Shown here: piece after piece, positions 12 to 28,822 of the stretch
Numbering within the stretch: position 1 is the first letter of the stretch
How the letters are laid out: each line of letters starts with the position of its first letter
DNA from: Candidatus Buchananbacteria bacterium
GTDB taxonomy: Bacteria > Patescibacteriota > Patescibacteriia > 2-01-FULL-39-33
Length of the DNA: 33,175 bases
Assembly (NCBI GenBank): GCA_903863425.1
Contig: CAIPBY010000002.1
Location: 1-33,175, forward strand
Direction of reading: 5' to 3'
Made by a program: the position numbers and the translations under genes
Notes under the pieces: model-generated
Told to the model about the DNA's origin: nothing
The model's input: only the letters and a program-made list of their open reading frames with translations
Databases searched by the model: none

Positions 12-473
12 ATGCCAAACAAAAATTTTTATAAAATAATTTTCATTTTTTTAATTATAATTGTTCTTTGTCTGGCAGTGATCATGGCTTTCTCGCCAAA
101 GCAAAGCAGTAAGAATTTACGAGCAGTCATTGGTAATAAAGAAATAAATATTGAGGTAGTAACCAAATCTGCCGACATGGAAAGGGGATTGGGGTATAGA
201 AAGTCGTTGGATCAAAACAGCGGAATGCTGTTCTCCTACGTCGGTTATGTCCGGCCCAGCTATTGGATGAAAGGCATGGAGTTTCCATTGGATATGATTT
301 GGATTGGGGATGACAAGGTTATCGGATATGAGCAGAATGTGCCCGTGGTCGCTACGGGGATGCTTCCTACTTATGCCCCCAAGGAGCTGATAAATATGGT
401 ACTGGAGGTAAATGCCGGTTTTGTGCAGACAAATAGCATAAAGATTGGGGATAGTCTGATTATCCATAATTAA
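12..473 (+). CDS. DUF192 family protein with N-terminal membrane anchor/signal
   Basis: ORF track; N-terminal hydrophobic segment, then DUF192-like core (ERGLGYRKSLDQNSGMLFSY...SYWMKGMEFPLDMIWIGDDKVIG...VLEVNAGFV). Confidence 0.85.
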   Translation: MPNKNFYKIIFIFLIIIVLCLAVIMAFSPKQSSKNLRAVIGNKEINIEVVTKSADMERGLGYRKSLDQNSGMLFSYVGYVRPSYWMKGMEFPLDMIWIGDDKVIGYEQNVPVVATGMLPTYAPKELINMVLEVNAGFVQTNSIKIGDSLIIHN

Positions 474-476
474 TTG

Positions 477-505
477 TTGACAAAAGGAGGTTTTTTGTGT
501 AGAAT
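477..505 (+). promoter_or_regulatory. sigma70-type promoter for rplU (TTGACA-N17-TAGAAT)
   Basis: TTGACA 477-482, 17-nt spacer, TAGAAT 500-505, just upstream of rplU. Confidence 0.75.
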
Positions 506-537
506 AAGAACAATGTAAAAAATCAATATTAACCATT

Positions 538-840
538 ATGAAATTAGCGGTAATTAAGACAGGTGGAAAGCAATATTTAGTCAAAGAGGGCGATAAGCTC
601 AAAATTGAAAAATTAGAAGCCCAAGTCGGCGATAAGGTGGAACTTGAGGCTTTGATGGTTGCTGACGGTGATAACTTGGAAATCGGTACTCCAGTGCTTG
701 AGGCCAAAATTTTAGCCACTGCCATCAAACAAGGTAGAAGCAGAAAAGTGACTGGCATCAAGTATAAACCGAAGACGAGGCAAGCCAAGAGATTCGGCCA
801 CAAACAATATTTCACGGAAGTTGAAATTGCAAAGATATAA
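538..840 (+). CDS. rplU: 50S ribosomal protein L21
   Basis: ORF MKLAVIKTGGKQYLVKEGDKLKIEKLE...GRSRKVTGIKYKPKTRQAKRFGHKQYFTEVEI, typical L21. Confidence 0.97.
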   Translation: MKLAVIKTGGKQYLVKEGDKLKIEKLEAQVGDKVELEALMVADGDNLEIGTPVLEAKILATAIKQGRSRKVTGIKYKPKTRQAKRFGHKQYFTEVEIAKI

Positions 841-851
841 TCTCTCTCAAT

Positions 852-882
852 AAAAAAGTCTTTCGAAATGAAGGATTTTTTT
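852..882 (+). terminator. rho-independent terminator after rplU
   Basis: AAAAAAGTCTTTC-gaaat-GAAGGATTTTTTT. Confidence 0.65.
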
Positions 883-912
883 ATTTTATAATTTTAATAT
901 CTTTATCTCAAA

Positions 913-934
913 CCCACCTTTTTAAAAAGGTGGG
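913..934. repeat. perfect 22-bp palindrome CCCACCTTTTT/AAAAAGGTGGG
   Basis: 11-nt arms with no spacer, read directly. Confidence 0.8.
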
Positions 935-942
935 GCCAAAAC

Positions 943-1069
943 GCAAGCGTACAAAATCATGGCCAATTTTCCCTGCACTCACTAAGGCACATGCGCTTCT
1001 GCTGGAGCTATATGTGCCTTTTAACGCTCGTGCTTAGGAAAAATTAGCACAATATTTTGTAATGCTTGC
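943..1069. repeat. long nested imperfect inverted repeat (structured intergenic element)
   Basis: Nested arms: GCAAGC 943-948/GCTTGC 1064-1069; TACAAAAT 950-957/ATTTTGTA 1054-1061; AATTTTCC 965-972/GGAAAAATT 1037-1045; GCAC 975-978/GTGC 1030-1033; AAGGCACAT 984-992/ATGTGCCTT 1012-1020; apical GCTTC-TGCT-GGAGC. Confidence 0.75.
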
Positions 1070-1100
1070 ATGGGTGCGGGTGCAAATACAAATACAAATA

Positions 1101-1700
1101 TTAAATCTCTTTCCTATCAATCAGCGCATTTTCCAGTGTGGCCTCATCGGCATATTCGAGGTCGGCGCCCATAGGCAGTCCTCGGGCTAGTCGAGAGATT
1201 TTTAAATTTGGAATTTGTTTGAATAATTTTATTAGATATAGGGAAGTGGTTTCACCCTCGATATCCGGATTAAGAGCAAGAATAATTTCTTTCACCTGAT
1301 CATTTCTAATTCTTTCCAATAGCTCCCTGATCTTTATTTTATCTGGGGTAATGTTTTCGATTGGATTAATATAACCGCCGAGCACGTGATAAGTGCCTCC
1401 AAAAGAATGAGTTTTTTCAATGGCCACGATGTCTTGATTTTTACTTACTAGACAAATCATTTCTCGGCTTCTGACTGGATTAGAACATATTGGACAAGGA
1501 TCATTTTCGCTGAAATCAAAGCAGGTGGAACAGAGCTTGACACTTTCCTTGATGTGCTTAATAGCTTCGCCGAATCGCACAAGCTCCTCTCTTGGTTTTC
1601 TGAGTAAATGAAAAACAAGACGTTCCGCCGTCTTGGGGCCAATGCTGGGAAGTTTGGCGAATTGATCAATTAAGTTTTGAATGCTTTTGGAATACATCAA
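1101..1700 (-). CDS. recR: recombination mediator RecR
   Basis: SIGPKTAERLVFHLL, four-Cys zinc finger (CSTCFDF...CPICSN), TOPRIM (ALNPDIEGETTSLYL), LARGLPMGADLEYADEATLENAL. Confidence 0.97.
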   Translation of the reverse strand: MMYSKSIQNLIDQFAKLPSIGPKTAERLVFHLLRKPREELVRFGEAIKHIKESVKLCSTCFDFSENDPCPICSNPVRSREMICLVSKNQDIVAIEKTHSFGGTYHVLGGYINPIENITPDKIKIRELLERIRNDQVKEIILALNPDIEGETTSLYLIKLFKQIPNLKISRLARGLPMGADLEYADEATLENALIDRKEI

Positions 1701-1702
1701 TT

Positions 1703-1993
1703 TTAATTCATTCCGGGAAATTTCATACCCAGTGAGGACATCTTCTGCGCCATGACCCTTTGCACCTTTTTGATGGCATCATTGGTGGCTTCGGCTATGC
1801 CAGATTCCAGTTTGCTCTTGTCTCCCAAAATGTCTTGCGCAATCTCTACTTTGGTCACTTCTTGATTTCCATCCATGGTAATTTTCACTTTGCCCCAACC
1901 ACCAGCTCCTTCGACTGATTCTTCAGCTAAGGCCTTCTTAATTTGATTGGCTTGACTTCGCAATTCTTGGACTTGTTTGATTTTTGAAAACAT
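1703..1993 (-). CDS. YbaB/EbfC family nucleoid-associated protein
   Basis: Coiled N-terminus, GKVKITMDGNQEVTKVEI core, adjacent to recR as commonly seen. Confidence 0.92.
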   Translation of the reverse strand: MFSKIKQVQELRSQANQIKKALAEESVEGAGGWGKVKITMDGNQEVTKVEIAQDILGDKSKLESGIAEATNDAIKKVQRVMAQKMSSLGMKFPGMN

Positions 1994-2008
1994 ATTTTTG
2001 TTTATTTA

Positions 2009-3403
2009 TTATTCATTATTACTATAATTATGACTGTAACTTTTATCTAAATTTTTGAAGCTGACAGTATTGAAGTCGAAGTAAAGGGGGATGACTCCGG
2101 TCGGGCCGTTTCTGTGTTTAGCTACATGAATTTCAGCAATATGTTTCTCCTCTTCAGTGAGTGAATTAGTATCATAGCCTTTGTCTTGCGCTTTGCGGTA
2201 AATGAACAGCACCACATCCGCATCTTGTTCGATAGATCCTGATTCGCGAAGGTGGGATAATTTTGGAATAGCCGGCTTGGTCTGCTCCACGGCACGGGAT
2301 AATTGAGATAAGGCAAGCACAGGGACATTGAGTTCTCTGGCAATGCCTTTGAGTGCTCTGGAAATTTCGGCAATTTCTTGCACTCTATTTTCGCTACCGG
2401 CCTTGCTACCGCTACCTTCCATGAGTTGTAAATAGTCAATTACAATAAGATCGAGGCCGTGTTCCATCTGCAGTCTTCTGGCTTTGGTGCGCAGTTCCAT
2501 GATGTTGGTATTGGCAAAGTCATCGATATAAATTTGGCTCTCAGCTAGAACGCTCATGGCTTGTCCGATTTTGGGGAAGTCATCACCGCTCTCAGACAAT
2601 TTACCGGTTCGCATCTTCCACATATCCACTCCGGCTTCACCGCAAATTAATCTATCAACTAGTTGCTCCTTGGACATTTCCAAGGAAAATAATCCAACTG
2701 ATTTGTGATATTTGGTGGCCACGTTTCTGGCAATGTCTAGGGCCAAAGAAGTTTTACCCACCGAAGGTCGAGCGGCTAGAATAATTAAGTCGGATTTTTG
2801 AAGTCCGGCCAAAAGATTGTCTAAGTCGGTAAATCCGGTTGGTAATCCGCGCAGTTTGCCTTTTTCTCTGTGAAGCTCATCGATGCGATCAAAGGCGCTG
2901 GTAAGTACATCGCGGATATGAGTGAATTTTTCTTTCAAATATTTCTGTGAAACTGAGAAAATGGATTGCTCGGACTTGTCTAGAATTTCATTGACTTCTC
3001 TTTCTTCGTGATAGCCGAGTTCTAGGATGTTGTTGGCCGCAGAGATAAGTCGACGCAGAGTGGCCTTGCGTTGGATGATTTGGGCGTGAGCCAAGACGTG
3101 GGCGGCCGACGGCGTCTGATTAGTCAAGGTTAATAAATATGACCTGCCTCCGATTTGCTCCAATAATTTTTTTTCATCCAAACGACTGGTAAGGCTCAAA
3201 ATATCAATTGGGTCCTTTTTGTCGAATAATTCAGTAATGGTTTCAAATATGTGGCTATGACTGGAGAGGTAAAAGTCGTCAGCCGTGATCAAATCCGCAA
3301 TTTTGATAATGGCGTCTTTGTCCAAAAGCAAAGCTCCGAGCAGGGATTGCTCGGCTTCGATATTCTGTGGGGGGAGTTTTGGGTTAATGTTGGTATCGCT
3401 CAT
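2009..3403 (-). CDS. dnaB: replicative DNA helicase DnaB
   Basis: PPQNIEAEQSLLGALLLD, Walker A ARPSVGKTSLALDIA, VIDYLQLM, LSQLSRAVE...RESGSIEQDADVV. Confidence 0.97.
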   Translation of the reverse strand: MSDTNINPKLPPQNIEAEQSLLGALLLDKDAIIKIADLITADDFYLSSHSHIFETITELFDKKDPIDILSLTSRLDEKKLLEQIGGRSYLLTLTNQTPSAAHVLAHAQIIQRKATLRRLISAANNILELGYHEEREVNEILDKSEQSIFSVSQKYLKEKFTHIRDVLTSAFDRIDELHREKGKLRGLPTGFTDLDNLLAGLQKSDLIILAARPSVGKTSLALDIARNVATKYHKSVGLFSLEMSKEQLVDRLICGEAGVDMWKMRTGKLSESGDDFPKIGQAMSVLAESQIYIDDFANTNIMELRTKARRLQMEHGLDLIVIDYLQLMEGSGSKAGSENRVQEIAEISRALKGIARELNVPVLALSQLSRAVEQTKPAIPKLSHLRESGSIEQDADVVLFIYRKAQDKGYDTNSLTEEEKHIAEIHVAKHRNGPTGVIPLYFDFNTVSFKNLDKSYSHNYSNNE

Positions 3404-3662: not shown

Positions 3663-3735
3663 GCGCTCATAGCTCAGACGGTAGAGCAACAGCATTTTAA
3701 GCTGATGGTCCCAGGTTCGAGTCCTGGTGGGCGCA
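3663..3735 (+). tRNA. tRNA-Lys (UUU)
   Basis: Acceptor GCGCTCA/TGGGCGC, D stem GCTC/GAGC, anticodon loop ATTTTAA (TTT), T arm CCAGG-TTCGAGT-CCTGG. Confidence 0.96.
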
Positions 3736-3776
3736 TAAATAAAAAAACGGGTTTACCCGTTTTTTTATTTATGCGC
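3731..3776. terminator. terminator-like perfect inverted repeat overlapping the tRNA-Lys 3' end
   Basis: GCGCATAAATAAAAAAACGGG 3731-3751 and CCCGTTTTTTTATTTATGCGC 3756-3776; 21-nt arms (22 with the t/a pair). Confidence 0.85.
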
Positions 3777-3926
3777 AGGTCAGAAGCGAGACAAGTTTTG
3801 AGCCGGAAGGCGAAAAGCGCAGTCGAGCGTCGATGGATGCGATCAACGGGAGCATTCATCGCTGACCCTGGACGAGCGAAACCGCCGGATTCGCCGGCGG
3901 TTGAGAGAGATTGCGCAGGTCAGAAG
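3773..3926 (+). ncRNA. tRNA-associated structured element, copy B (candidate RNA or mobile element)
   Basis: Closing helix GGTCAG/CTGACC, conserved AAGCGAG, hairpin CGATGGATGC/GCATTCATCG, hairpin AACCGCCGG-attcg-CCGGCGGTT; homologous with copy A on the minus strand at ~28690-28804. Confidence 0.55.
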
Positions 3927-4051: not shown

Positions 4052-4324
4052 ATGAAAAGAGTAAATGCGGTTACTATTTATAGACCCAAAAAACGCATCA
4101 TCTTGGTGCGTGTTCCTGATGGCGACAGATCAAGTTGCGAGATTAATGTGACGGGTCAGTTTCGCAAGGCTTTCGGCGGTAAATTGAACGCCAAGATACT
4201 TAGGGCGATTTTTGCCACGGCGCCTAGGACGCTGGAAGTTCTTTTTGAAAGCGGTCCTGTTCGTATTAGCGAAGACAGTATCGAAAGCTGGTATCAGCGG
4301 ACGCTTAGGAAGATGTTGCGATAA
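4052..4324 (+). CDS. hypothetical protein (orphan cassette 1, gene 1)
   Basis: ORF preceded by GGAGG SD and a consensus promoter; compositionally GC-richer than neighbours. Confidence 0.7.
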   Translation: MKRVNAVTIYRPKKRIILVRVPDGDRSSCEINVTGQFRKAFGGKLNAKILRAIFATAPRTLEVLFESGPVRISEDSIESWYQRTLRKMLR

Positions 4325-4359
4325 AGCCAGGATTCAATTTTAATGAAAGGATGCGCGGG

Positions 4360-4860
4360 ATGATTGAAATTAGAGATTTATCCGACATGCAACTATGCTG
4401 GCTTCTCCTGCGGTGGATAGCCGACAGTTATCAGGGAAGACAAAGGCTAGCAAAGAACGGTACGCTTCTTCTTTGTTTTTTGGAGATAGTGGTTGATCGG
4501 GAGATTATCTATGACGATTACAGGGAGAACGTATCGACGTTACTCATGGAGGCCGGAAGAAGGGTCCTGGAGGTTAGGGAGTATCCTCGGCAAACTCAAA
4601 TGATGTTGCCATTTAAATTGGTTGCATTTCTGCCGAACTGTGCGCTTGCATATGTTCTGTTGGATCAATTGAGTAGATGGTATCATTATGAGCTTGCCAG
4701 GAAGGGAAAACATTCACCCAAGGGTTATTTAAGTTTTGAGGCTGCCATTTTCGATGTAGCCTTTCAGCTTTTCCCGATAGAATGCCTTTCTGCCACCGAA
4801 TTTAATCCATCGTTTGAGGAGATTGTCTCCGAGGCTGAGAGAAAGTCGAGGAGAGGATGA
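4360..4860 (+). CDS. hypothetical protein (orphan cassette 1, gene 2)
   Basis: ORF track gives 4351; ATG at 4360 (MIEIRDLSDMQLCW) has better spacing to GAAAGG. Closely follows 4052-4324. Confidence 0.7.
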   Translation: MIEIRDLSDMQLCWLLLRWIADSYQGRQRLAKNGTLLLCFLEIVVDREIIYDDYRENVSTLLMEAGRRVLEVREYPRQTQMMLPFKLVAFLPNCALAYVLLDQLSRWYHYELARKGKHSPKGYLSFEAAIFDVAFQLFPIECLSATEFNPSFEEIVSEAERKSRRG

Positions 4861-28476: not shown

Positions 28477-28572
28477 TGGCAGTTATTAACTTATTTTTTA
28501 ACTAAAATTAGCAAAAATAAAACACCACAAAAGGTGTTTTATTATTTTGAATAATAGTTTTCCCGCGCAAAG

Positions 28573-28643
28573 CTGGGAGACTAGGAATCGAACCTAGATT
28601 AATGGCTTCAAAGGCCACTGTCCTACCATTAGACGATCTCCCA
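28573..28643 (-). tRNA. tRNA-Gln (UUG)
   Basis: Minus: TGGGAGA...TCTCCCA acceptor, anticodon loop CTTTGAA, T arm CTAGG-TTCGATT-CCTAG. Confidence 0.95.
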
Positions 28644-28689: not shown

Positions 28690-28804
28690 CGCACGGGCCT
28701 AAGGCCCATCCCTGGGTTGGCGCTGGATGCTCCTTATGGTCGCATCCATCGACTCTCGTCCGGATTACCGAACTCGCTTCCAACCTGTCGGTGATTACAC
28801 CGAC
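28690..28804 (-). ncRNA. tRNA-associated structured element, copy A
   Basis: Minus: GTCGGTG-taat-CACCGAC, GGTTGG-AAGCGAG...CGATGGATGC/GCATCCAGCG-CCAACC, then GGGCC-tta-GGCCC; homologous to copy B. Confidence 0.55.
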
Positions 28805-28822
28805 CCATTAGACGATCTCCCA
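28805..28822 (-). repeat. 18-nt exact duplicate of the tRNA-Gln 5' end
   Basis: TGGGAGATCGTCTAATGG (minus) identical to 28626-28643. Confidence 0.9.

Follow-up and report, generated by a model that had tools for sequence, protein, structure and literature searches.

Copies of a folded element in the window

The stretch analysed was positions 1–33,175 of contig CAIPBY010000002.1 on the forward strand (the window; its own genome is referred to as G000). It carries two copies of a short folded element, copy B beside tRNA-Lys and copy A beside tRNA-Gln, which are homologous by sequence. The features at the two loci were as follows.

3663–3735, plus strand: intact tRNA-Lys(TTT), target gene of copy B (ARAGORN; Rfam RF00005)
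3731–3776, plus strand: perfect inverted repeat GCGCATAAATAAAAAAACGGG-TTTA-CCCGTTTTTTTATTTATGCGC (sequence)
3776–3871, plus strand: core of copy B, a three-way junction (covariance models R1, 92.5 bits, and R2, 84.2 bits; covariation)
3778–3783 with 3862–3867, plus strand: P1 of copy B
3790–3792 with 3822–3824, plus strand: P2 arm of copy B, with hairpin
3831–3840 with 3852–3861, plus strand: P3 of copy B
3880–3902, plus strand: H2 hairpin AACCGCCGG-ATTCG-CCGGCGGTT, 3' of the copy B core (fold)
3913–3926, plus strand: direct repeat GCGCAGGTCAGAAG of 3773–3786 (sequence)
28572–28643, minus strand: intact tRNA-Gln(TTG), target gene of copy A (ARAGORN; Rfam)
28711–28787, minus strand: core of copy A, type II, a D-loop insertion (R1, 82.1 bits)
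28788–28803, minus strand: H1 hairpin TCGGTG-TAAT-CACCGA, separating the tRNA half from the copy A core (sequence; junction analysis)
28805–28822, minus strand: partial tRNA-Gln, 5' half, positions 1–18, ending at the D-loop GG (18/18 identity)

The motifs that an earlier note on this DNA had described as common to A and B were present in both copies. So was the compensated closing helix that it described, P1 being GGTCAG/CTGACC in B and GGTTGG/CCAACC in A, with two pairs compensated; the extra arm of copy B, GTTTT-GA-GCC-GGAA-GGC-GA-AAAGC, was also found as stated. Both copies folded more stably than their shuffles (z = −3.7 and −3.6).

Copy B is a T-side copy. The repeat at 3731–3776 consists of the 3' end of tRNA-Lys and its trailer, followed by the inverted copy of this segment (x'), and is terminator-like as well; the same arrangement was observed at the tRNA-Lys loci of two other genomes, G003 and G008. 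A 14-nt direct repeat (3773–3786 and 3913–3926) brackets copy B. The right-hand member, a tRNA end joined to the start of the core, is the remnant of the right flank of copy B. Tandem units with a repeated core start also occur in G285:C16 and L252. Copy A lies 5' of tRNA-Gln and starts with an 18-nt copy of the 5' half of that gene. These tRNA-derived repeats, the origin of the flanks from the target tRNA and the mobility of the element go beyond the earlier note.

The family and its covarying fold

When the genome of the window was searched by BLAST with copy B, a third copy (copy C, between tRNA-Arg and tRNA-His) was recovered with an E value of 1.1e-12 and copy A with 2.4e-5. In a second genome of the family, a pattern search gave a fourth copy, 5' of tRNA-Asn. 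A covariance model was built from four sequences (A, B, and two relatives) and applied to 381 genomes of the class. Matches at E ≤ 0.1, most of them far stronger, were obtained in 53 genomes, with 154 distinct copies. A more permissive pass over ten family members gave at most 12 copies in any one genome; in the genome of the window, six copies were credible. With a second model for other classes, the element was found in 17 of 380 genomes phylum-wide and in 16 of 49 genomes of one further class; named carriers include Moranbacteria, Kerfeldbacteria, Komeilibacteria, Doudnabacteria, and Uhrbacteria. The covariance-model search of Patescibacteria that had been proposed thus yielded many further homologues, and the observation is real and larger in scale than first described. 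Exact long patterns, which are too strict, gave no match in genome and viral collections. Two pattern matches outside Patescibacteria (L184, Caldilineaceae; L192, Verrucomicrobiota) were rejected as chance matches, neither giving a match to the model.

The core measures about 60–115 bp, and up to about 135 bp with the hairpin that follows it. In the three-way junction, P1 is the closing helix, and the variable P2 arm has, close to its base, an internal loop of tandem GA/GA; P3 usually takes the form GC-GA-NN-loop-NN-A-GC. In two alignments of 60 and 82 sequences, which were fitted to the structure so that percentages are flattered, all 21 modelled pairs change on both sides. The double-change cells numbered 230 and 441, respectively, and none of 500 shuffles matched any measure; when the alignment was slid as a control, the covariation collapsed. 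In the seed of four sequences, 98.8% of cells were paired, compared to 89.6% in shuffles, and seven pairs showed double changes when the seed was aligned by MAFFT. The three-way-junction fold is maintained by covariation in every modelled helix, as expected from the conserved RNA or cruciform structure that had been proposed.

Four type II copies (L052, at G004:C21:1374; L046, 1856–1931; L111, at G005:C25:16739; L090, at G000:C86:34591) carry a P3-like bulged hairpin (GCGACC..GGAGC) in H1, and in the same four copies the hairpin at P3 of the core is plain or altered. It is as if a putative binding motif had changed arms.

When the window was searched with the 4227 models of Rfam at gathering thresholds, only tRNAs were found, in keeping with the statement that the element belongs to no named family. 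Relaxed thresholds added matches at chance level only, and the loci L203 and L257 gave only tmRNA (transfer-messenger RNA) and tRNA. No description of the element was found in open-access papers. None of the outcomes that the earlier note had named as speaking against its proposal (a lack of further homologues or of covariation, or a match to a known family) was observed.

Target tRNAs, flanks and movement

The recurrent association with tRNA genes was borne out. A tRNA gene lies on the same strand within 120 nt of 119 of the 154 distinct copies, 37 anticodons being represented, whereas a nearby tRNA on the opposite strand was found for none of the 154; with tRNA genes assumed at about 45 per megabase, roughly 1% would be expected by chance. 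The usual spacing between element and tRNA is 52–71 nt upstream or 23–71 nt downstream. Most of the remaining 35 copies keep a T-arm complement and a remnant of a tRNA end, and are therefore taken to be array members or copies whose tRNA was lost. Almost all out-of-sample loci of other classes adjoin a tRNA, and one adjoins a tmRNA. At L203 (1501–1580, minus strand), the element lies 3' of tmRNA; this locus also contains a complement of the tmRNA T-loop and repeats the tmRNA 3' end.

Insertions occupy the D-loop, the variable loop or the T-loop of a tRNA that has been partly duplicated; they lie inside the partial duplicate, so that one intact tRNA remains beside them. In type I (T-loop) copies, the order is tRNA, trailer, reverse complement of the T-arm from G53, core, often H2, and a second tRNA 3' end that begins at about position 58. 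In type II (D-loop or variable loop) copies, the leader and the tRNA 5' half as far as the D-loop GG are followed by H1 and the core, then by tRNA sequence of about 10 nt starting at position 20/21, and then by the full leader and tRNA again. The break in D-loop copies falls after tRNA position 18/19, with resumption at 20/21. The reverse complement of the left flank matched its own tRNA over a mean of 9.7 nt, compared to 6.0 nt for other tRNAs, and the right flank repeated the end of its own tRNA over 19.1 nt, compared to 7.4 nt for others. Complementarity of at least 6 nt between the immediate left and right flanks was observed in 55% of loci but in 20% of shuffled loci. The direct repeat of the freshest type I copies is 75–107 nt long with 97–100% identity, and the left flanks of L177, L180, and L191 repeat tRNA positions 53–71 almost completely in inverted form, around the terminator hairpin.

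One insertion, L218 (1501–1581, minus strand), is not at a tRNA but at what appears to be the 3' end of an open reading frame (ORF). Its direct repeat measures 20 nt and the inverted stretch next to the core 8 nt; the anatomy is that of the tRNA sites. Since this holds at a non-tRNA site, and since cores keep their identity up to the tRNA-specific sequence, the flanks are made from the target.

The element is mobile. In three genomes of one genus (G003, G007, and G009), tRNA-fMet, tRNA-Met, and tRNA-Leu stand in the same order, and the elements at this locus number none in G003, two in G009, and three, one of the other type, in G007. In G008, cores 97% identical to each other occur at tRNA-Gln and in a tRNA-Asp array; the identity runs through H2 and ends where tRNA-specific sequence starts. 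In the genome of the window, copy A (type II) and the type I copy at G000:C11 share the core while their flanks are unrelated. The nearest core was in the same genome 43 times, compared to 4.6 expected, when copies within arrays were counted.

The inverted T-arm copy would be explained if a reverse transcriptase had copied an RNA after priming, or a template switch, at tRNA 3' ends. Such a retro-element is consistent with target duplications of variable length, with the inverted positions 53–71 beside the core in fresh insertions and with the genes for reverse transcriptases of the diversity-generating type that adjoin elements in L060 and L140. It is unlikely, however: the reverse transcriptase domain RVT_1 is about equally frequent in genomes with and without the element, and G008, with many copies including the 97% identical pair, gave no RVT_1 match. 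RVT_1 was likewise not detected in G009, G033, G199, and G551; as these genomes are 95–100% complete, its absence is likely but not certain.

A functional structured RNA (a processed small RNA or a tRNA-trailer regulator) kept for the host, with the repeats as by-products of tandem duplication, would account for the strong covariation, the invariable position on the tRNA strand, the excess of G-T over A-C cells and the copies at the same tRNA-Lys in G000, G003, and G008. We consider it distinctly unlikely. Presence differs within one genus, the flanks derive from the target, and the sites used comprise tRNAs of 37 anticodons, tmRNA, and one non-tRNA site. In addition, a terminator-like hairpin and a T-run stand between tRNA and element in 59 of the 97 type I copies, and G-T pairs amount to 2.6–3.4% in the element, compared to 6.9% in the tRNAs of the same loci. 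Because of these last two observations, a role as DNA is favoured.

Arrays, known systems and the proposed mechanism

In four loci (L059, L060, L061, and L065), two or three elements were found with genes between them and tRNA-end repeats as bounds. Genes near elements encode radical SAM enzymes, nitroreductase, EutH, Fic, and reverse transcriptases of the diversity-generating type; the last lie directly upstream of elements in two families, at L060 (2459–3478) and L140 (140–1273). Upstream of the element at L068 (9378–12715) are genes for a type II restriction enzyme, a D12 methylase, a LexA-like protein, a ThsB-like TIR protein, and an 8xMP membrane protein, a gene content that likely represents a defence island. 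L252 (1737–1911), L066, and L069 contain perfect tandem copies of the whole unit, with periods of 105, 199, and 214 bp, which suggests amplification or re-insertion.

Larger integrative elements are known that insert in tRNA genes and regenerate the tRNA, tycheposons among them. In these general terms the element behaves likewise, leaving the tRNA intact, but it is shorter than 140 bp, has no integrase gene, uses D-, variable- and T-loop sites and occupies many isotypes per genome. Tycheposons are named in PMC11389934. The copies might be attachment-site remnants of such elements or of phages, as the tRNA-end direct repeats and the cargo (restriction-modification, TIR, Fic, radical SAM), typical of tRNA islands, would suggest. 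This also seems improbable, as most copies are cargo-free and lie 52–71 nt from the tRNA, the same core occurs at D-loop and T-loop sites, its fold is kept across classes, and two exact patterns, the first of them narrow, gave no match in 2.9 million viral contigs.

Integron attC sites are non-coding and folded, lie at gene borders in arrays, and have a left end complementary to the right end (PMC2727003). The element likewise occurs in arrays that delimit gene cassettes, has complementary ends and probably folds as a single strand; tyrosine recombinases are present too. That these are true attC sites, with the tRNA as attI, is nevertheless highly improbable. None of ten tyrosine recombinases scored passed the cut-off for integron integrases (TIGR02249, at most 132 bits against 265), the R-box-like sequence is target-specific, and, unlike attC, the element has a three-way junction with conserved loops, many different tRNA anchors and a tRNA-specific complement, and its insertion duplicates the target.

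Miniature non-autonomous repeats such as REP/REPIN (PMC3116915) are short, non-coding, dispersed, foldable and presumably moved in trans, all of which applies to the element. It differs in needing no Y1 transposase (G008 lacks it), in its tRNA-loop sites, in a fold that covaries across classes and in its target-derived inverted flank. Membership of REP/RAYT was rejected, the Y1 (HUH) transposase Y1_Tnp being undetected in G000, G003, G008, and other carriers. The classical miniature inverted-repeat transposable element, defined by element-borne terminal inverted repeats and a short fixed target duplication, was rejected as well: the inverted flank is target-derived and the duplication variable in length. 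Rickettsia palindromic elements answer to the same general description as REP/REPIN, presumed movement in trans included, and the same features set the element apart from them. The IS110 bridge RNA and the omega RNA of IscB/TnpB place a structured non-coding part beside target-matching sequence, as the element does, but it has no linked recombinase or nuclease gene, and its D-loop copies have no target-complementary guide. The DEDD transposase with Transposase_20, required for IS110 membership, was detected in 5 of 34 genomes and not in the other 29, G000–G009 among them.

The reading that we favour, and consider probably correct, builds on the conserved fold, the tRNA-loop placement, the target-derived flanks and the presence/absence variation. 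It takes the copies as a mobile element that is non-coding, is recognised through its fold and is moved in trans; its arrangement is integron-like, but it is not an integron. The element, which is protein-less, is apparently undescribed and lies outside every family tested here. It would be recognised as a folded single strand, most likely DNA, seated on a stem that the target provides, namely the D-stem or a helix between the reverse complement of the T-arm and the tRNA copy on the right. A host enzyme would move it in trans; instead of by recombination, it might also spread by replicative template switching at the palindromic T-loop. Repeated insertion or recombination at one tRNA would then produce arrays with accessory genes between elements, as in integrons. 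We put forward tentatively, at a little short of even confidence, that the element represents a class of its own among mobile elements: a DNA hairpin without proteins that has tRNA loops as its universal landing site, builds its closing stem from the target, repairs the tRNA on insertion and borders gene cassettes of Patescibacteria in integron fashion.

Several points weigh against this reading. The presence/absence comparison covers three genomes of one genus, and losses could contribute. Among pair cells on the tRNA strand, G-T exceeds A-C (80 against 34), which leans to RNA or top-strand folding and not to the bottom strand as in attC. The direct repeats range from 17 to more than 100 nt, whereas ordinary site-specific recombination has a fixed core, and copies in the D-loop are probably part of the tRNA transcript. 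Finally, the leading enzyme is a candidate drawn from the tyrosine recombinases, which genomes without the element carry just as often.

Tyrosine recombinases (PF00589) were detected in all 60 genomes tested, and the ten scored were all of XerC/XerD/XerA type and not IntI. A chromosomal Xer-type enzyme is the leading candidate, with about one chance in three; as such enzymes are equally common without the element, it is consistent but not discriminating. Reverse transcriptases, Y1 and IS110 transposases and serine recombinases showed no association with the element among the genomes tested, and each is missing from at least one element-rich genome; G008 gave no match for RVT_1, Y1_Tnp or the IS110 type.

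Patescibacteria have tiny genomes and few known routes of gene gain. If the favoured reading is true, a widespread element that spares the tRNA while bordering accessory genes, likely defence genes among them, would be a route of gene acquisition for them, and folded DNA would have universal landing sites in tRNA loops. Because each insertion is recorded in the target-derived flanks, the mechanism is open to test.

The two ORFs immediately 3' of copy B (window 4052–4324 and 4351–4860) had no Pfam match. Near tRNA-Ser(tga) at L197, tRNA-Asn at L040, and tRNA-Pro at L235, a T-arm complement is followed by CCGGAGCG[A/T]T.TTT, possibly a second family with the same tRNA-arm arrangement. At L242 (G000:C46), two tyrosine recombinase genes (191–1171, plus strand; 1143–2081, minus strand) lie tail-to-tail, and a similar pair occurs at G009:C46, so that the arrangement is found in two genera of the family.
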